A stretch of 64,000 nucleotides of DNA from the NCBI GenBank assembly GCA_022827345.1, contig JAJDTB010000027.1, positions 62,001 to 126,000 of the forward strand, in the 5' to 3' direction. Source of the DNA: Gemmatimonadota bacterium. Lineage in GTDB: Bacteria; Gemmatimonadota; Gemmatimonadetes; Longimicrobiales; Gaopeijiaceae. Position numbers and translations under genes: made by a program. Below the pieces are notes generated by a model. That model saw nothing but the letters and a program-made list of their open reading frames with translations. It searched no databases and was not told the origin of the DNA. This document shows, piece after piece, positions 21,249 to 30,547 of this stretch (position 1 is its first letter; each line of letters begins with the position of its first letter).

Positions 21249-22268
21249 ATGAAGATCGATCGCGAACAGGTCCGCCACTGGAAGCGGGTCCTCTCCCCCT
21301 ACTTCGGACCCGACGACCGACGCAGCGCCTGGCAGATGGGGTACACCGCCGTGCTGTTCGCGGCCGGGTGGACGCTCATGTACTGGAGCCTCTCGGTCGG
21401 CTACTGGCTCACGCTGCTGCTGGCCGTTCCGACCGCCGGACTGATCATGCGGCTGTTCATGTTCCAGCACGACTGCGGGCACGGGTCCTACTTCAGGTCG
21501 CGGCGCCTGGCCTGCGTTGCCGGCTCGGTGATCGGCGTGCTCACCCTCACGCCCTACCACTACTGGCGGAAGACGCACGCCATCCACCACGCGCATTCGG
21601 GGGATCTGGATATGCGGAGTTTCGGCGACATCGTCACCGTCACCGTTCGGGAATACGAGGCGATGTCCCCTCTGCAGCGCCTCGGCTACCGGCTGTACCG
21701 CAACCCGATCATTCTCTTCGGTCCCGGCGCGGCATTTCACTTCTTCATCAAGCACCGCTTCCCCTGGGACGTGCCCCGGACGTGGAAGCGCGAATGGCAG
21801 TCGGTATGGTGGACCAACGTAGCACTGGCCGCGATCCTGACCGCCGCCTGGCTGACCATCGGGATCGGACCGTTTCTGATGGTTCAGCTTCCGATCACGC
21901 TCATTTCGATCGCGACGGGCGTGTGGCTCTTCTACGTGCAGCACCAGTTCGAGGACGCCTACTGGCACTGGCACGAGGACTGGGACTACTACGATGCGGG
22001 CCTGTTCGGCTCGTCGTTCCTGCGCCTGCCGAAGGTGCTGCAGTGGTTCACCGCGAACATCGGCCTGCACCACGTACACCACCTGAGCGCGCGCATCCCC
22101 AACTACCGGCTCCAGCGCTGCCACGACGAGAACCCGGAGCTGTGGCAGGCGCCCACGATGTCGCTGTGGGACGGCCTCAAGGCGATCCCCCTGGCACTCT
22201 GGGACGAGGGTGGGCGCAAGTTGATTTCGTTCCGCCAGTACCGGCGGCTGAGGGCGGCCAGAGCCTGA
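21249..22268 (+). CDS. membrane fatty acid desaturase
   Basis: 339 aa with four or more membrane helices and the three histidine boxes of the DesA/desaturase superfamily: HDCGH near residue 75, HAIHH near 116 and HHVHH near 283, which bind the di-iron centre. Such enzymes use O2 and electrons from ferredoxin or cytochrome b5-type donors to put a double bond in a membrane lipid acyl chain. It starts 9 bp after the M81 peptidase gene and converges with the Rieske-TPP gene. The spacing and order of the boxes match acyl-lipid (omega-type) desaturases; related families hydroxylate or act on carotenoids, so the substrate is not certain. Confidence 0.92.
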   Translation: MKIDREQVRHWKRVLSPYFGPDDRRSAWQMGYTAVLFAAGWTLMYWSLSVGYWLTLLLAVPTAGLIMRLFMFQHDCGHGSYFRSRRLACVAGSVIGVLTLTPYHYWRKTHAIHHAHSGDLDMRSFGDIVTVTVREYEAMSPLQRLGYRLYRNPIILFGPGAAFHFFIKHRFPWDVPRTWKREWQSVWWTNVALAAILTAAWLTIGIGPFLMVQLPITLISIATGVWLFYVQHQFEDAYWHWHEDWDYYDAGLFGSSFLRLPKVLQWFTANIGLHHVHHLSARIPNYRLQRCHDENPELWQAPTMSLWDGLKAIPLALWDEGGRKLISFRQYRRLRAARA

Positions 22269-22339: not shown

Positions 22340-24376
22340 CTACACCAGCGCCGGGTCCGCGATGACCTCCACGGTCGCCGGACCGTCGCAGGCCAGCGCC
22401 TCCGCCAGCGCTTCGTCCAGCTCACCCGCTCTGCGCACCCGGACTCCGAACGCACCGCACAGCTGCGCGTACTTCGAGAAGTCGGGGTTGTGGAGCGATG
22501 TCTGCCACACGTCGAGGTTCCCGGCGCGCTGCTCCTTCGAGATCTTGCCCAGCTCGTCGTTGTTGAGCACGAGGTGCGTGATGTTCATCCCGTACTTCAC
22601 GGCCGTGGTGATCTCGGCGAGGTACTGGCCGTAGCCTCCGTCACCCGACACGGCGACCACCTGGCGCCCGCTGAAGGGCGTTCCCGATTCCCGGGTCGCG
22701 GCCCACGCCCCCAGCGCGGCCGGGTAGGCGAAGCCGATCGAGCCCAGATACCCCGACATGAGGACCGCGTGGTCGCGGCATTCGAAGTAGCGCCCGAAGG
22801 AATAGGCGTTGTTGCCCACGTCCACGGTCAGGATCGCGTCGTCATTCACGGTGCGGGCGAGCGCCGCGAAGATCGCCGCCGAGTTGACGCCCCGGCCCTG
22901 GTCGTCGGCTTCGCGGCGCGCCTTCTCGGTCCGCCAGATCCGCCACCGGTCCGCGATCTCGCCGCGGTGGTCGATCGATGCCGCGCCGCCCGCCTCCACC
23001 GCCTCGGCAAAACGCTTCACGGTCACCCCGATCTCTCCCCACACGGGGACGTCCACCGCGTGGAACTTGCCCAGCGCCATCGGATCGAAGTCGACCTGGA
23101 TCGTCGGCTTCTTCGGCGTGATGCCGGTGTGGTTCGAAAAGCTCGCCCCCAGCACGAGCAGCAGGTCGCTCTCGTTCATGAACCAGCTGGCGATGGGCGT
23201 GCCGCTGCGGCCCAGCACGCCGCACCCGAGCGGGTGGGCGTCGGAGATGATCCCCTTGGCCTTGAAGGTGGTGATCACCGGGCACTGCAGACGCTCCGCC
23301 AGCGCCGTGATCCGGTCCATGTGGAAGCGCGCGCCGTGCCCGGCGACGATCACCGGCCTCTCGGCGCGGGTTAGCAGCCGGATCGCATCGTCCAGCGCGT
23401 CGGCGGGGGGCGCGATGGTCCTGCGGGTCATGCGGCCGGCCGGCGAGCCCGGCTCGCTCCCCTCCCTGGCCGGCAGCACCTGCACCTCGTCCGGGAAGAT
23501 GAGGTGCGACACGCCCCGGTTCAGGATCGCGCTCTTGCACGCCAGATTGACCAGTTCGGCGTGCTTGCTCGTGTGCAGCACCGGCTGGCTCCACTGCGCG
23601 ACCTGCCCGAAAGCCGCTTTCAGGTCGACCTCCTGGAACGCCCCGGGGCCGAGCACCTGCGTGTCGACCTGTCCGGTGAGCGCCAGCACCGGCGAGCGGT
23701 CCACGTTGGCGTCCCAGAGCCCGGTCAGCAGGTTGGTGGCCCCCGGCCCCGCGATCGACAGACACGCCGCCGGCCGCCCCGTCAGCTTGCCGTACGCCGA
23801 GGCCGCAAACGACGCCGCCCCCTCGTGACGGATGCCGATGAAGGTCATCTCGCCCGCGGCCTCCCGCCGCCGGATCGCGTCGGCCAGTCCCAGGTTGGAG
23901 TGGCCGACCATCCCCCACACCCAGCGCACCCCCCAGTTGGCCATCGTCCTGGCCATCAGGTCAGAGACGGTCTCGACGTGCATCTCGTCCTCGGGCATCC
24001 CCACGTACACGCCGTCGTCGCGCACATCGACCCTGTAGGTGGCGACGCCGTCGTCGTAGCCTCCCGGCGGCTTGCCCGTCAGCGGATGGAAGTCCCATCC
24101 GTGCCAGGGACAGCGCAGCCACCCGTTCTCGATCGACCCCTCGCCAAGGGGGCCGCCCTGATGCGGACACTTGTTGTCGAGCGCGGCGTAGATGCCCTTG
24201 TGGCGGGTCATGCAGACGGTCTTGCGGCCGCAGCTGACCGGCTTGACGCGGCCCTCGGGGAGCTCGTCGGGCGCGAGCACCTTGAGCCAGCGGATGCGGG
24301 GGTCGGTGGCGGATGCGCCGTTGCCGGACGCGCGGGCGGACGACTCGTTATCGGGACTGGCGGGCTTGTCGGACAT
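22340..24376 (-). CDS. fusion of a Rieske [2Fe-2S] domain and a thiamine-diphosphate enzyme (pyruvate oxidase/acetolactate synthase-like)
   Basis: 678 aa from ATG 24376; a longer frame would run into the divergent FKBP gene. After a flexible 25-residue start, residues about 28-130 are a Rieske domain with ligands C70-x-H72 (CPHQGG) and C89-x2-H92 (CPWHGWDF). From about 135 to the end is a full three-domain ThDP enzyme: activating Glu185 in IRHEGAASF, GPGATNLLTG, a middle FAD/nucleotide-type domain, and the ThDP-Mg motif GDGGYGQYLAEI to LVLNNDE. Pyruvate oxidases and relatives pass electrons from decarboxylation to flavin and quinone. The attached Rieske cluster suggests an internal electron acceptor or donor; this is inference. 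Substrate unknown, cytoplasmic (no signal). Confidence 0.9.
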   Translation of the reverse strand: MSDKPASPDNESSARASGNGASATDPRIRWLKVLAPDELPEGRVKPVSCGRKTVCMTRHKGIYAALDNKCPHQGGPLGEGSIENGWLRCPWHGWDFHPLTGKPPGGYDDGVATYRVDVRDDGVYVGMPEDEMHVETVSDLMARTMANWGVRWVWGMVGHSNLGLADAIRRREAAGEMTFIGIRHEGAASFAASAYGKLTGRPAACLSIAGPGATNLLTGLWDANVDRSPVLALTGQVDTQVLGPGAFQEVDLKAAFGQVAQWSQPVLHTSKHAELVNLACKSAILNRGVSHLIFPDEVQVLPAREGSEPGSPAGRMTRRTIAPPADALDDAIRLLTRAERPVIVAGHGARFHMDRITALAERLQCPVITTFKAKGIISDAHPLGCGVLGRSGTPIASWFMNESDLLLVLGASFSNHTGITPKKPTIQVDFDPMALGKFHAVDVPVWGEIGVTVKRFAEAVEAGGAASIDHRGEIADRWRIWRTEKARREADDQGRGVNSAAIFAALARTVNDDAILTVDVGNNAYSFGRYFECRDHAVLMSGYLGSIGFAYPAALGAWAATRESGTPFSGRQVVAVSGDGGYGQYLAEITTAVKYGMNITHLVLNNDELGKISKEQRAGNLDVWQTSLHNPDFSKYAQLCGAFGVRVRRAGELDEALAEALACDGPATVEVIADPALV

Positions 24377-24497
24377 GGCGGAGGACCCCGGTTGGTGGAC
24401 AGGAACGACGCAGAATAGTGTACCCTTATGGGCCGATGCAGGTTCGGATTGGGGAACATCGACGGTCACGGACAATGACCAGACGGGGAGCGAACAC

Positions 24498-24968
24498 ATG
24501 AAGCGGTCGGGTAACCGGGCTGGAGGCGTGGTGATGGGGCTGGCGGTGGTCGGGGCCGCGCTGACGGCCTGCGGAGACGACATGACCGGCCCCCAGGCCA
24601 TCGAGGACGCCGAGTTCGCGTCGTCGCTCGGGATCAATCTGGCGAATTTCACCCGAACCTCGTCCGGCCTCTACTACGAGGACATTGCGGAGGGCTCGGG
24701 CGATCCGGCCGCCGCCGGACAGGAGGTCGAGGTCTCCTATGCCGGCTGGCTGACCGACGGCACCGAGTTCGACAGGGGGGAGTTCAGCTTCATTCTGGGC
24801 GCGCGCGAGGTCGTGGCCGGCTTCGACGAGGGCGTCACGGGGATGAAGGTGGGCGGGATCCGCCGGATCATCATCCCGCCGGCGCTGGGGTACGGCAGCC
24901 AGGGGAGCGGGCCCGTGCCGCCCAACGCGATCATGATCTTCCGGATCGAGGTGCTGGCGATCGGGTGA
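24498..24968 (+). CDS. FKBP-type peptidyl-prolyl cis-trans isomerase lipoprotein
   Basis: 156 aa from ATG 24498 with GGGGAG seven bases before. Lipoprotein signal (VVGAALTACG). FKBP domain at about 55-155: VSYAGWLTDGTEFDRG, VVAGFDEGVTGMKVGG, IIIPPALGYGSQG, VPPNAIMIFRIEVL, with the drug/proline pocket residues (Tyr, Phe, Asp, Val-Ile type, Trp replaced by FDEGV) in the FkpA/MIP arrangement but without the dimerising helix domain. It would help protein folding at the cell envelope. It is divergent from the Rieske-TPP gene, 121 bp apart. Confidence 0.94.
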   Translation: MKRSGNRAGGVVMGLAVVGAALTACGDDMTGPQAIEDAEFASSLGINLANFTRTSSGLYYEDIAEGSGDPAAAGQEVEVSYAGWLTDGTEFDRGEFSFILGAREVVAGFDEGVTGMKVGGIRRIIIPPALGYGSQGSGPVPPNAIMIFRIEVLAIG

Positions 24969-25012: not shown

Positions 25013-25387
25013 TCAGTCCGCTGTCGTCACACCCTGGTCACTCAGGCGCATGAAGTCGGCCTTGTTTGCGGTGGCGACGGGCGCGCCGTCCGCCTGTGCC
25101 GCAGCCGCGATCATACAGTCGATCAGCGATCCGCGGCGGCGTCCCGATTCGTTGAAGAGCCGGGCAGCCGATTCCGCGTCGTCCCTGGTGAAGTCCCGGT
25201 GGCGACCGATAATCGCCCCTGCCACGGCCAACTCCGACGCCGTCAGTGGCCCGCACTGAAACTCCGCCCAGGCCACCGAGCACACCGCGAGGGACTCACC
25301 ATGGGCGATCCATCGGCGAAGCGCCTGATCCTCCGGCGTCCCGCGCACCAGAGCCCGGATCAGAAAACTCGTGTCCAGGTGGATCAT
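25013..25387 (-). CDS. vapC: VapC-type PIN-domain toxin (ribonuclease)
   Basis: 124 aa, normal for VapC. The four acidic PIN residues are present: D5 (HLDTSFL), E42 (WAEFQCG), D90 (SLIDCMIAA) and D111 (NKADFMRL), which hold Mg2+ in the RNA-cleaving site. The ATG at 25387 overlaps the antitoxin stop by four bases (ATGA), so translation is coupled. VapC toxins cut tRNA or rRNA at single sites when the antitoxin is lost. The family call is firm; the target is unknown. Confidence 0.92.
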   Translation of the reverse strand: MIHLDTSFLIRALVRGTPEDQALRRWIAHGESLAVCSVAWAEFQCGPLTASELAVAGAIIGRHRDFTRDDAESAARLFNESGRRRGSLIDCMIAAAAQADGAPVATANKADFMRLSDQGVTTAD

Positions 25388-25671
25388 TCGGATCCGGACC
25401 AGAGCCGCCGCCCCGCCGCGGCGCGCTCGGCCCTGAGGTCTTGCTCCCACTGCCCGAGATCCACACCGCGCGCGCGCACCGTGTCCTGCAGTCGGGTGAG
25501 CGCTTCGAGGGCGACGCTGCCACCCTCGTCGTCACCCGCCACCAGCGCGATGCGGAGCGCACGACGGATGACTTCCGACTTGGACACGTCCCAGCGGTTC
25601 GCGAGTCCTTCCAGCGTGCGGACCGAGTCCACGTCGAGGGAGTAGGTGGATTTGATGGTGGTTATGGCCAT
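25384..25671 (-). CDS. vapB: ribbon-helix-helix antitoxin of the VapBC module
   Basis: 95 aa. N-terminal strand and two helices form a ribbon-helix-helix DNA-binding domain (TIKSTYSLDVDSVRTLEGL, then WDVSKSEVIRRALRIAL), followed by an acidic and basic tail that would wrap the toxin. It would repress its own promoter as a dimer. The ATG sits inside the palindrome TATGGCCATA and has no ribosome site; a promoter lies so close that the message is probably leaderless (see the promoter entry). Confidence 0.9.
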   Translation of the reverse strand: MAITTIKSTYSLDVDSVRTLEGLANRWDVSKSEVIRRALRIALVAGDDEGGSVALEALTRLQDTVRARGVDLGQWEQDLRAERAAAGRRLWSGSE

Positions 25672-26202: not shown

Positions 26203-27039
26203 CTAATCACCCTCCGCGTCGGCCGCCGCGGACCCTGCTTCGGCCACCGTCCAGCGCGCCGGGTCGTGGTTCTGGAGGTAGCGCTCGCGGTCGATCCAGC
26301 CGTTGATCATCGACCAGGTCATCCAGCGCTTCTCGGGCCGGATCGCGAAGTAGACGTGGGCGATGACGAGGAAGATGAGGCCGATGCCGCAGACCCCGTG
26401 GATCACGTAGATCCAGCCCCACGCGGTGTCGCCGAACATGTAGGTGTTCATCGGCAGCAGGAAGTTGTCGACGCGGAACATCATCAGGACGCCGGTGACC
26501 ACCGCGCCGAGGGTCGCGATCATGGCGACGTGGTGGAACATCTTCTGATCGACCGGATACTTGCCGGCGCGCGGGCGCTCGATGTCCGCCTGGCCCATCG
26601 CCGCCTTCAGGCCGAGCTTGCCCTCCTCGACGTCGCGGCGGTCGATCCACATCGTCCAGAAGTCCTGCTTCGCGAAGACGTGGTAGATATGGTAGATGAC
26701 CGTCAGGATCAGCAGGACGCCCGCGATCCAGTGGATCGTCACCCAGGGGAACTGGATCCCGATGACGGGGAAGAAGGCCGTGATCAGCAGCGCGAACATG
26801 GTCACGCTCATCGACCAGTGGAATCCGCGCGCGCCGGTCGTGTGGCGCAGCAGTTTGGCGGGCAGTCCGCGCGCCTCGTCCTCGTCGATCTCGCCGGTGT
26901 CCACCTTCTTCGGCACCAGCAGGGCGTGGCCCACCACGAACGCGGCGCCGATGATCACCGCCGCCCAGATCAGATCCCACGAGACACCGATGGGGACGTT
27001 CTCGCCCCAGGGATTCAGTGCGCGCCGAAGGAATTCCAT
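26203..27039 (-). CDS. membrane cytochrome b (formate dehydrogenase gamma/cytochrome b561-like)
   Basis: 278 aa from ATG 27039 (GGAGAG eight bases before). Four to five membrane helices with His residues placed for two b hemes: RGFHWSMSVTMFALLI, VTIHWIAGVLLI plus YHIYHVF, FHHVAMIATLGAVVTGV and YVIHGVCGIGLIFLVIAHVYF. This is the DHb/FdnI-type di-heme fold that takes electrons from a periplasmic enzyme and passes them to quinone. Directly after the FAD subunit of a Tat-exported molybdenum hydroxylase, it is the likely electron outlet of that enzyme. The C-terminal tail after the last helix (EKRWMTWSMINGW) is charged and cytoplasmic. Confidence 0.88.
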   Translation of the reverse strand: MEFLRRALNPWGENVPIGVSWDLIWAAVIIGAAFVVGHALLVPKKVDTGEIDEDEARGLPAKLLRHTTGARGFHWSMSVTMFALLITAFFPVIGIQFPWVTIHWIAGVLLILTVIYHIYHVFAKQDFWTMWIDRRDVEEGKLGLKAAMGQADIERPRAGKYPVDQKMFHHVAMIATLGAVVTGVLMMFRVDNFLLPMNTYMFGDTAWGWIYVIHGVCGIGLIFLVIAHVYFAIRPEKRWMTWSMINGWIDRERYLQNHDPARWTVAEAGSAAADAEGD

Positions 27040-27106
27040 GGTCTGTCTCTCCGTTGGATGACCGATAGGCAAACCCGGGAGCCCGCGGACTCCCGGTTGC
27101 GCAAAA

Positions 27107-28108
27107 TCAGGCCGCGTCCCGAATCGACCGCTTCACCAGGTTCCGCGTGAGGGCGATCTTGTAGTCGTTGTGCCGGAGCGCACGCGCACCTTCGACCGCG
27201 ATCTCCCCGGCCATCTGTCCCGTTTCGTCGCTGGGCTCGCGTCCGCGGATCGCCGCTTCGACCGCGCCCATCCGCACCGGGTACGGCGCGATGCTGTTGA
27301 CGACGATCCGTGCGTCCTGGATGACGCCGCCCTGCACCTGCAGCATCGACGCGACGCTCACGAGCGAGAAGTCCCAAGACTTGCGGTCGCGGATCTTCTC
27401 GAAGTACCACCGCGCGCCCTCCCACGGGGCCGGCAGCACGATGCGGGTGAGGAGGTCGCCGGGCTCGAGCACGGTCATGCGCTCGATGTCGATGTCGGGG
27501 CCGATGAAGAAGTCGGTGGCCGCGAAGGTGCGCTCGCCGGAGGTGCTGACGACCACCATCTCGGCGTCGAGCGCGACGAGGGCGGGCGCGGTGTCCGAGG
27601 GATTGACCGCGACGCAGCGGTCGGCGCCCACGATGCAGTGTTCGCGGTTCATCGAGCGCCGCGTGCCGGCGTAGCAGATGTTGCCGCCCGCGCGGTAGCA
27701 TGGCCACCCGCTCCGGTAGTACCAGCAGCGGGTATCCTGCACGATGTTGCCGCCGAGCGTACCCTGGTTGCGGATCTGGGGCGTGGCCACCAGCCCCGCG
27801 GCCTCGGCGAGGAGCGGGTAGGCGCCCTGCACCCCGCCGTGTTCGGCGATGTCGGTGAGGCTCGTCATGGCCCCGATGTCGAGTCCGCCGGATGCCCCGT
27901 CCGCGATGCCGCGGATCTCGTCCACGGCGGCGAGGTCGATCACCGCCGCCGGGCGCTTGATCCGGTCCTTGAACCAGTCGAAGGTGTCGAGTCCTCCCGC
28001 GAGCACCCAGCCCTGGTCGCCGTACTGGTCCATGAGCCGGACCGCGTCGTCTACGCCCGCCGGTTGAAAGAGCTCGAACGGCGGGATCATGTCACGTATG
28101 ACAGCCAC
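27107..28108 (-). CDS. molybdenum hydroxylase FAD/[4Fe-4S] subunit (PaoB/YagS-like)
   Basis: 333 aa CoxM-type FAD subunit. FAD-binding motifs are present: VLAGGLDTFDW and RNQGTLGGNIVQDTR. Right after these the chain carries a cysteine set, C128, C137, C145 and C158, in the pattern seen in E. coli PaoB (YagS), where it binds an extra [4Fe-4S] cluster; ordinary xanthine dehydrogenase FAD subunits lack it. No signal peptide, so export would be by piggyback with the Tat-bearing small subunit, as in PaoABC. It sits between the large subunit (40 bp) and the cytochrome b gene. Confidence 0.9.
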   Translation of the reverse strand: MAVIRDMIPPFELFQPAGVDDAVRLMDQYGDQGWVLAGGLDTFDWFKDRIKRPAAVIDLAAVDEIRGIADGASGGLDIGAMTSLTDIAEHGGVQGAYPLLAEAAGLVATPQIRNQGTLGGNIVQDTRCWYYRSGWPCYRAGGNICYAGTRRSMNREHCIVGADRCVAVNPSDTAPALVALDAEMVVVSTSGERTFAATDFFIGPDIDIERMTVLEPGDLLTRIVLPAPWEGARWYFEKIRDRKSWDFSLVSVASMLQVQGGVIQDARIVVNSIAPYPVRMGAVEAAIRGREPSDETGQMAGEIAVEGARALRHNDYKIALTRNLVKRSIRDAA

Positions 28109-28147
28109 TTTATTTCTCCTTGTCGGTCAGACGCGCGTGTTCACTCA

Positions 28148-30547
28148 TCAGACGTGGGTGTCCAGCAGCCCGTAGGGACGGGGCCGGCCTTCCAGTTCGG
28201 CGAGGATCATGTCGGAGGTGAGGGGCGTTCGGCACAGGCAGAGTCCGCCCATGGCGTCGGCCACGGCGCACGCGTAGGCCGCCTCGCCGGCGCCCACGGG
28301 GGGCTCGCCGATACCCTTTGCTCCGACCGGGGTATGGGGGTCCGGCTCGTTGACGGCCGCGAACCGGGGGCTGAGCGGGACATCGAGGATTCCCGGCGGA
28401 CGCGCGGTGTAGAAGCGCTTGGTGAAGGGGATGCCCCACTTCGGGTCGAAGACCCAGCGCTGGCTCTTCGCCATCCCGATCCCCTGGAAGACGCCGCCGT
28501 TGGTCTGGCCGGCGAGCGAGCGCGGGTGCATGACCGTGCCGCAGTCGGTGGACGAGGCGAGATCCACGATCTCGACCTCGCCGGTCTCGACGTCGAGTTC
28601 GATCTGGGCGAAGGTGGCCACCCAGGTGAAGACCGCGCCGGCCTGCGGATAGTTGTCCCTCGCGGCGGCGATGAGCCCCTCTCCGGCCAGGCCGGCCACG
28701 GCCGCCTTGGTGGCGTCGTTGAGGTCTTCGGGGACGACTTCGCCGCTGAACCTGCCGCCCATGGCCATCGCGCGTTCCGCCGCTTGCGCGAAACTGAGGC
28801 CGGCGGCGCGGTTGCCTGCGCGGAAGACGCGCCCCTCGGAGACGCGGTAGTCGCCGGGTGAGCCGCCAAGCTCGCTCGCGGCCAGTTCCTGCAGCAGGCC
28901 GACCAGCGCCGTCGCTGCCGCGTGGTTGGCACGGGTGTGGGCGTGGGTGGTCTGGCTGCCCGCCTGCACCGTGCTGAAGGGCAGGTGCTTGCTGGTGTCG
29001 CCCCAGACGATGACGACATCGTCCCACGCAAGGTCGAGGACGTCGGCCGCGGGGCGCGCGGTGTCGGCGATCGAGTGCGTGCCGAGGTTCCCGATGCCCT
29101 GGTGGACGTACAACTTGCCGTCGGGACGGATGACCAGGAGGCCGTCGCGTCCGGTGCTGCCCGCGGTGAACGGGCTGAGCCCCATGCCGACGCCGGTCAC
29201 CTTGGTGCCGTTGCGCTGGCCCGACAGCTGGCTCTTCTCTTCCCAGCCGAAGAGTTCGCCGCCCAGATCCAGCGCCTCGCGCACGTACGCGCTGGTGAAC
29301 GGTCCCTGGTTGGGCCCGAGCCAGCCGTCGTGGCCCGGCGCATTGATCTTGCGGATCTCGAGGCGGTCGACGCCGAGTTCGCGGGCCGCCTTGTCGACCA
29401 GCGGCTCGAGCATGGCGACGATCTGCGCCCCGCCCGGCGCCCGCTGTGCGGATCGCGGCGGCGTATTGGTGTACACGGGCACGCCCTGGAAGCGCATGTT
29501 CTCGGGCTGGTAGATGGCGGTGGCGACCGTGCCGGCGGTGCTGAAGTCGCTGGCGCGTCCGTATGGTCCGCCGTCCTGGACGATGTAGAGGTCGAGCGCC
29601 GTCATGCGGCCGTCGCCGCGGAAGCCGATCCTGGCCCAGCCCTGGAATCCGGCGCGGGCGCGGCCGATGTAGTTCTCTTCGTAGCGCGTGATCCGGAGCA
29701 TCACCGGACGGCCGATCTTGCGGGACAGCACTGCGGGGACCGCCATGGACGGCACCCCCGAGATCTTGCTGCCGAAGCCGCCGCCGCAGTACTCGCCGAT
29801 GAATACCACATCGTCCGCCTCAACCCCGGCCATGCGCGCGACGCTGCCCCGGGTCCGTTCCGTACTCTGCGTCGAGCCGTGCAGGAAGAGCTTCCCGTTC
29901 TGCCAGTACGCCATGCAGGAGCGGGGCTCCATGGGGTGGTGCGTCACCGACTGGTGGACGATCGTCTCCTCGACGATGACCGCCGCTTCGTCGAAGGCCG
30001 CGTCCACGTCGCCGATCGTCCACTCCGTCGCGGGCTCGCCCATGGGCAGCCTGTCGGGTCCGGCCTCGTCGAAGACCGAATTCGGCCACTTCAGCGTGGT
30101 CGCTTCGCCGCGTCCGCCGACGTTGCCGTCCAGGCGCGCGTCGGGGCCGCCCTCGCGAAGGCTCTCGAGGGGATCGAGTACGAAGGGCAACTGCTCGAAG
30201 TCGACCCGGATCGCCTCCACTGCGGCTGCGGCGGTCGTTTCGTCCACGGCCGCCACCGCAAGGATCGGCTCACCCTCGTACTTGGGCTCGTCCGTCAACG
30301 CGGCTTCCCCGATCCCCTGTTCCTGCTGCGGCAGCTCCGACGCCCTCAGAATCCCCAGAACTCCCTCCATCGCCTCGGCCCTGCTCGTGTCCACGCTGCG
30401 GACCCGCGCGTGCGGCATGGGACTCAGCAGGAGTTTCGCGAAGACCATGCCCTCGGCGCGGAAGTCCTCGGCGTATCGGGCCCGGCCCGTAATCTTCGCT
30501 CGAAGATCCGGTGGGGAGATGTCCGTGCCGATTACGTTCTCAGCCAT
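28148..30547 (-). CDS. molybdenum hydroxylase large (molybdopterin) subunit, PaoC-like
   Basis: 799 aa, standard for the xanthine oxidase family Mo subunit. N-terminal a/b hammerhead (ITGRARYAEDFRAEGM), then two Mo-pterin domains with [22 protein letters not shown] and the catalytic glutamate in GAKGIGEPPVG near the C-terminus, which attacks with the Mo-OH. It has no signal peptide. The family oxidises aldehydes, purines or aromatic heterocycles with water as oxygen source. PaoC relatives oxidise aldehydes, mainly aromatic, in the periplasm. Substrate here is not known. Small subunit upstream (16 bp), FAD subunit downstream. Confidence 0.92.
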   Translation of the reverse strand: MAENVIGTDISPPDLRAKITGRARYAEDFRAEGMVFAKLLLSPMPHARVRSVDTSRAEAMEGVLGILRASELPQQEQGIGEAALTDEPKYEGEPILAVAAVDETTAAAAVEAIRVDFEQLPFVLDPLESLREGGPDARLDGNVGGRGEATTLKWPNSVFDEAGPDRLPMGEPATEWTIGDVDAAFDEAAVIVEETIVHQSVTHHPMEPRSCMAYWQNGKLFLHGSTQSTERTRGSVARMAGVEADDVVFIGEYCGGGFGSKISGVPSMAVPAVLSRKIGRPVMLRITRYEENYIGRARAGFQGWARIGFRGDGRMTALDLYIVQDGGPYGRASDFSTAGTVATAIYQPENMRFQGVPVYTNTPPRSAQRAPGGAQIVAMLEPLVDKAARELGVDRLEIRKINAPGHDGWLGPNQGPFTSAYVREALDLGGELFGWEEKSQLSGQRNGTKVTGVGMGLSPFTAGSTGRDGLLVIRPDGKLYVHQGIGNLGTHSIADTARPAADVLDLAWDDVVIVWGDTSKHLPFSTVQAGSQTTHAHTRANHAAATALVGLLQELAASELGGSPGDYRVSEGRVFRAGNRAAGLSFAQAAERAMAMGGRFSGEVVPEDLNDATKAAVAGLAGEGLIAAARDNYPQAGAVFTWVATFAQIELDVETGEVEIVDLASSTDCGTVMHPRSLAGQTNGGVFQGIGMAKSQRWVFDPKWGIPFTKRFYTARPPGILDVPLSPRFAAVNEPDPHTPVGAKGIGEPPVGAGEAAYACAVADAMGGLCLCRTPLTSDMILAELEGRPRPYGLLDTHV

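Follow-up and report, generated by a model that had tools for sequence, protein, structure and literature searches.

The window, by which we mean the whole stretch of 64,000 nucleotides analysed, contains at 22340..24376 on the minus strand a gene for a protein of 678 aa, in which a Rieske [2Fe-2S] domain is joined to a thiamine diphosphate (ThDP) enzyme. The frame translates from an ATG at 24376 to a stop codon at 22340. Residues 1–24 have low confidence in the AlphaFold2 model and are unaligned in many homologues, and the frame stays open upstream as far as a GTG at 24652; thus, the start codon is not certain. The gene stands alone in the window: a fatty acid desaturase gene (21249-22268, plus strand) converges on it, and an FKBP-type isomerase gene (24489-24968, plus strand) diverges from it. 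Farther along, a PIN-domain (VapC-like) protein is encoded at 25013-25450 (minus strand), and the stretch 26203-30547 (minus strand) holds molybdenum hydroxylase genes (large subunit at 28148-30547, FAD subunit at 27107-28108) and, after them on the same strand, a gene at 26203-27072 for a membrane protein of the cytochrome b561 type. This protein may link the molybdenum hydroxylase to quinone.

All domains of the fusion protein, encoded on the minus strand, were matched by Pfam far over the respective cut-offs. The Rieske domain occupies residues 30–127 (23996..24289): PF00355 matches residues 30–102 with an E-value of 5e-17 (62 bits against a gathering threshold of 20.3), and the strands of the model span residues 28–128. 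Its ligand loops, C70-x-H72 and C89-x2-H92, are encoded at 24101..24169. The ThDP enzyme comprises residues 136–671, where TPP_enzyme_N, _M and _C (E-values of 4e-33 to 4e-30) occur in this order with a catalytic Glu and a GDG...NN motif, the features of the ThDP pyruvate oxidase/AHAS superfamily. TPP_enzyme_N (PF02776; residues 136–254; 23615..23971) carries the catalytic E185 and the pocket residues H159 and F247-Q248, which are aligned to E50, D27 and F112-Q113 of E. coli PoxB, respectively. TPP_enzyme_M (PF00205; residues 329–454; 23015..23392) is probably an FAD-binding domain, and TPP_enzyme_C (PF02775; residues 519–671; 22364..22822) contains the ThDP/Mg motif, with GDG at 578–580 and NN at 605–606, and K611 (codon at 22544..22546), aligned to PoxB F465. 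The complete Rieske site and the complete ThDP enzyme that the preliminary description had reported are thus both present.

Homologues were sought in about 85,000 prokaryotic species genomes, and the best 80 of more than 580 candidate stretches were kept. These show 62–90% identity over almost the full length, and they come from Acidobacteriota, Myxococcota, Nitrospirota, Planctomycetota, Gemmatimonadota, Cyanobacteria, Pseudomonadota, Bacteroidota, Calditrichota, an actinobacterium, haloarchaea and others; the identical Rieske–ThDP architecture, for which a search across genomes had been proposed, is kept in homologues of many phyla. Three features were found in an alignment of 74 rows, consisting of 73 of the best 80 homologues and the window protein. 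One is that the four Rieske ligands, E185, F247, Q248, H159, K611 and E615 are invariant in all rows. Another is that the join (residues 118–140) has a deletion in none of the 74 rows and an insertion in one, which bears out the single frame with a gapless join described earlier. The last feature is that the mean pairwise identity is 0.70 for the Rieske half and 0.70–0.76 for the three TPP domains: the Rieske half evolves as slowly as the ThDP half, and this is more in keeping with a functional redox centre inside the enzyme than with an accident.

The preliminary description had held that homologues without the N-terminal domain, together with a sequencing or assembly join, would speak against the fusion. 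Neither was encountered. When 298 Gemmatimonadota genomes were queried with the ThDP half (E ≤ 1e-90), no close homologue lacking the Rieske domain was found: all 11 copies (66–100% identity) carry it, and the next ThDP relatives below them are only about 33% identical. Since every close homologue is fused, an assembly join or a frameshift fusion is ruled out, and chance is untenable as the origin, the ligands and E185 being invariant across many phyla. In a congener (G003), the copy has lost an internal segment and is truncated at its end. Copies on haloarchaeal plasmids are 66% identical and one on a Mycobacteroides plasmid is 54% identical; the high identity between bacterial and haloarchaeal plasmid copies suggests horizontal transfer between them. 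Haloferax larsenii is one of the carriers with the gene on a plasmid, and Neolewinella persica is a further carrier.

The nearest solved sequences to the Rieske half are the ferredoxins CarAc (1vck, carbazole dioxygenase) and T4moC (1vm9, toluene-4-monooxygenase), with which it shares the ligand pattern and an alignment across the entire domain. Rieske ferredoxin components of this kind have a low potential and carry electrons from one protein to another, between a flavoprotein and an oxygenase. The extra disulfide-forming Cys residues of the high-potential bc1/b6f Rieske proteins are absent from the loops of the fusion, which read CPHQG and CPWHG.

For the ThDP half, the nearest solved sequence is E. 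coli PoxB, with 28% identity. The AlphaFold2 model (mean pLDDT 89, pTM 0.86) superimposes on PoxB with Z 40.5 and 2.6 A over 517 residues; HKA synthase is effectively tied, and PQO and AHAS are close behind. The likeness to PoxB extends to the catalytic Glu (E50), F112, Q113 and E469, the last matched by E615, where AHAS-type relatives have W. In the central domain, G389, F413 and D429 are aligned to PoxB G252, F276 and D292, which we take from the PoxB annotation to be FAD contacts; these positions are thus retained, and they are also common to AHAS-type enzymes, where FAD contacts occur without redox chemistry. The differences from PoxB are equally clear. At the position of PoxB F465 (annotated in PoxB for electron transfer) and POX F479, the aromatic residue is absent and the invariant K611 is found instead; the invariant H159 replaces D27; and the C-terminal lipid/quinone-binding peptide of PoxB is missing, the fusion chain ending at about PoxB residue 531 of 572. 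The curated NCBIfam pyruvate oxidase equivalogs also score well under their cut-offs (NF006377, 386.6 against 742 bits; NF006591, 294.7 against 792; TIGR02720, 291.4 against 638). These characters place the ThDP half in the POX superfamily, as a member distinct from PoxB. Where the earlier label was "thiamine-diphosphate decarboxylase-type", the ThDP half is a relative of the PoxB/POX-type oxidases rather than a generic decarboxylase. K611 may bind a second carboxylate group on the substrate or reflect an altered electron or proton path.

Next to many of these genes lies a second Rieske fusion, a widespread protein of about 545 aa with an N-terminal Rieske domain and a glutamate synthase FMN domain (PF01645), hereafter referred to as Rieske-GltS. 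In 29 of 29 cases it has the [3Fe-4S] motif C-x5-C-x4-C and a full set of Rieske ligands. Because there is no glutaminase domain and PSRFPD stands where GltS has PPPHHD, it is doubtful that the protein acts as a conventional glutamate synthase. Rieske-GltS adjoins the Rieske–ThDP gene in 32 of the best 80 of more than 580 stretches, lying upstream of it 26 times and downstream 6 times; 17 of the gaps measure −9 to 87 bases. In the window's own genome it is encoded elsewhere (G000:C48:26512-28119, L132:6489-8132; 68%). It is present in 38 of the 49 fusion-bearing genomes; the 11 that lack it are the eight cyanobacteria of the set and three more. Of 59 relatives, 13 have it, among them all six that carry the fusion or what remains of it (p = 4e-5, a value that treats as independent genomes that are not). 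Of the 298 Gemmatimonadota genomes, 23 have it, and 9 of the 11 fusion carriers are among these (p = 9e-10, on the same assumption of independence, which does not hold). On a plasmid of Halorubrum salinarum (L120:6302-13000), Rieske-GltS lies amid genes for an NAD(P)H-hydrate epimerase, DsrE/TusA/rhodanese proteins, a DUF3179 protein, a cupin and an M20 hydrolase, and this island recurs on haloarchaeal plasmids.

In 7 of the 8 cyanobacterial loci, the Rieske–ThDP gene is adjoined, in place of Rieske-GltS, by a gene for an FMN_red flavoprotein (PF03358). Relatives of this flavoprotein (59–61% identity) also occur together with the fusion in a Gemmatimonadota genome and on the Mycobacteroides plasmid. 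FMN_red was found in 9 of the 11 fusion genomes without Rieske-GltS against 3 of the 38 with it (p = 5e-6, the genomes being counted as independent, which they are not). The p-values given here ignore relatedness: 8 of the 11 fusion genomes without Rieske-GltS are cyanobacteria. FMN_red occurs in 13 of the 298 Gemmatimonadota genomes, and in this sample all 11 fusion bearers have one partner or the other (p = 6e-12, again for non-independent genomes treated as independent); the window's own genome encodes both. In two fusion genomes (G330 and G362), neither partner was found as far as they were searched. Rieske-GltS and FMN_red belong to unrelated sequence classes, both of FMN-binding families, and the replacement of one by the other suggests a common role, most simply that of redox partner of the fusion's Rieske domain. 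Their co-occurrence is neutral as to the direction of electron flow.

Other neighbours also recur among the best 80 of the more than 580 stretches. In 23 loci (e.g., L021:5104-5979 and L041:9329-10156), the fusion is clustered with a gene for a DUF5996-type protein, some members being too divergent for Pfam; nothing in the PDB convincingly resembles its high-confidence model (pLDDT 95; best Foldseek E 0.21, best VIA Z 6.8), and it may represent an undescribed fold. Na+/H+ antiporters are found in 8 loci, and in 5 there is a membrane protein that is similar to ferric reductases and carries a Rieske domain at its C-terminus. The latter, a third Rieske fusion (L133:4289-5806 in G000:C5; L071:2438-3565), adjoins Rieske-GltS in G020; the gene after it encodes an orphan membrane protein with the motif FYVGY early in its sequence. 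In four Nitrospirae loci the fusion is followed by a carbonic anhydrase, which would suit a CO2-releasing enzyme. The neighbourhoods are too variable to indicate a substrate from gene context, and the haloarchaeal copies lie on plasmids amid unrelated redox and sulfur genes.

From these results we propose that the fusion is a soluble oxidoreductase for a 2-oxoacid (pyruvate-like), that it depends on FAD and ThDP and belongs to the PoxB/POX superfamily, and that it has its own electron outlet through the Rieske cluster to an interchangeable flavoprotein, a proposal that we regard as evenly poised between right and wrong. The oxidoreductase part is based on the complete, invariant Rieske and ThDP sites, on the fold, pocket and sequence closest to PoxB, on the retained FAD-contact positions and on the loss of the membrane peptide. 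The outlet part is based on the ferredoxin-like Rieske half and on the adjacency, co-occurrence and replacement of the flavin partners, with which an internal Rieske relay fits. In the proposed mechanism, ThDP would attack and decarboxylate a 2-oxoacid, and the resulting carbanion/enamine would reduce FAD in the central domain. FAD would then pass electrons one at a time to the low-potential Rieske cluster of the same chain, which would deliver them to a separate flavin partner, either the FMN/[3Fe-4S] protein Rieske-GltS or, in cyanobacteria and a few others, the FMN_red flavoprotein. In this scheme we infer the FAD occupancy, the direction of electron flow, the substrate and the physical contact with the partners; because F465 of PoxB is an invariant Lys here, the step from ThDP to FAD may differ or be absent. 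As a more speculative and rather unlikely extension, the Rieske–ThDP fusion and Rieske-GltS may form a two-protein chain, in which electrons from 2-oxoacid decarboxylation pass from Rieske to Rieske and directly drive a GltS-type reduction, NAD(P)H, ferredoxin and quinone all being bypassed; in cyanobacteria, a flavodoxin-like protein would be the substitute.

The direction of flow may be the reverse, with the FMN_red or GltS-like flavoprotein reducing the Rieske cluster and the cluster the flavin of the ThDP enzyme, for a reductive or resetting chemistry as in Rieske oxygenase systems. The nearest Rieske relatives are indeed ferredoxins fed by flavin reductases, FMN_red proteins are usually NAD(P)H-driven reductases, and the direction-neutral co-occurrence accommodates this flow as well. 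Nevertheless, the nearest ThDP relatives in sequence and fold include the pyruvate-oxidising PoxB and PQO, and we know of no reductive ThDP/FAD enzyme of PoxB-like fold; we therefore consider electron entry through the Rieske domain improbable. The replacement of the electron-transfer residue by K611, the pocket H159 against D27 of PoxB and the scores of AHAS-type enzymes close behind POX would instead agree with a non-redox carboligase or lyase, resembling AHAS or glyoxylate carboligase, with FAD in a structural role and a Rieske cluster that is either structural too or a sensor of O2 or redox state. In such an enzyme, the conservation of the Rieske half at the level of the catalytic half, the E615 that follows PoxB rather than AHAS, and the prevalence of flavin/Fe-S redox proteins among the recurrent partners would be hard to accommodate, and we give this interpretation a small share of the probability.

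The association with the partners could also be indirect, through a shared stress or nitrogen/carbon regulon or the same mobile islands, the true acceptor being a housekeeping ferredoxin, flavodoxin or quinone. The isolation of the gene in the window, the mixed surroundings of the haloarchaeal copies and the recurrence of Na+/H+ antiporters and DUF5996 proteins are in line with this, but two partners of unrelated sequence classes that nonetheless both belong to FMN-binding families and replace each other would not be expected from it; we judge such an indirect link unlikely.

The pattern of partners leads to a specific, testable hypothesis on the acceptor, and it links three families that have been little studied, the Rieske-GltS protein, the FMN_red flavoprotein and DUF5996. 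In the open-access library searched, no paper describing the Rieske–ThDP architecture was found. The fusion, whose identity stays near 70% from one bacterial phylum to another and in haloarchaea as well, is annotated, as are the haloarchaeal and Mycobacteroides plasmid copies, only as "thiamine pyrophosphate-binding protein"; the sequences are already public, and what they encode is a new architecture, probably with new wiring, within a known enzyme superfamily.

CarAc and T4moC are separate small proteins serving oxygenases, whereas the Rieske domain of the fusion is attached to a ThDP enzyme. AHAS and glyoxylate carboligase share with the fusion the fold and the FAD-type central domain but have no Fe-S domain. 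The POX enzymes of L. plantarum and A. viridans share the fold, the domain order and the pocket F-Q, but they pass electrons to O2, and the fusion has a fused cluster and Lys for the pocket Phe. PoxB (pyruvate:ubiquinone oxidoreductase; PDB 3eya/3ey9) and C. glutamicum PQO (9ev6) are alike in the three TPP domains and the fold; neither has the N-terminal Rieske domain, which would take the place of the membrane/quinone outlet of PoxB and of the O2 outlet of POX. In the known ThDP oxidoreductases, electrons leave via FAD to quinone or O2, or via [4Fe-4S] clusters to ferredoxin; a POX-type chain with a Rieske outlet of its own would add a further kind of wiring.
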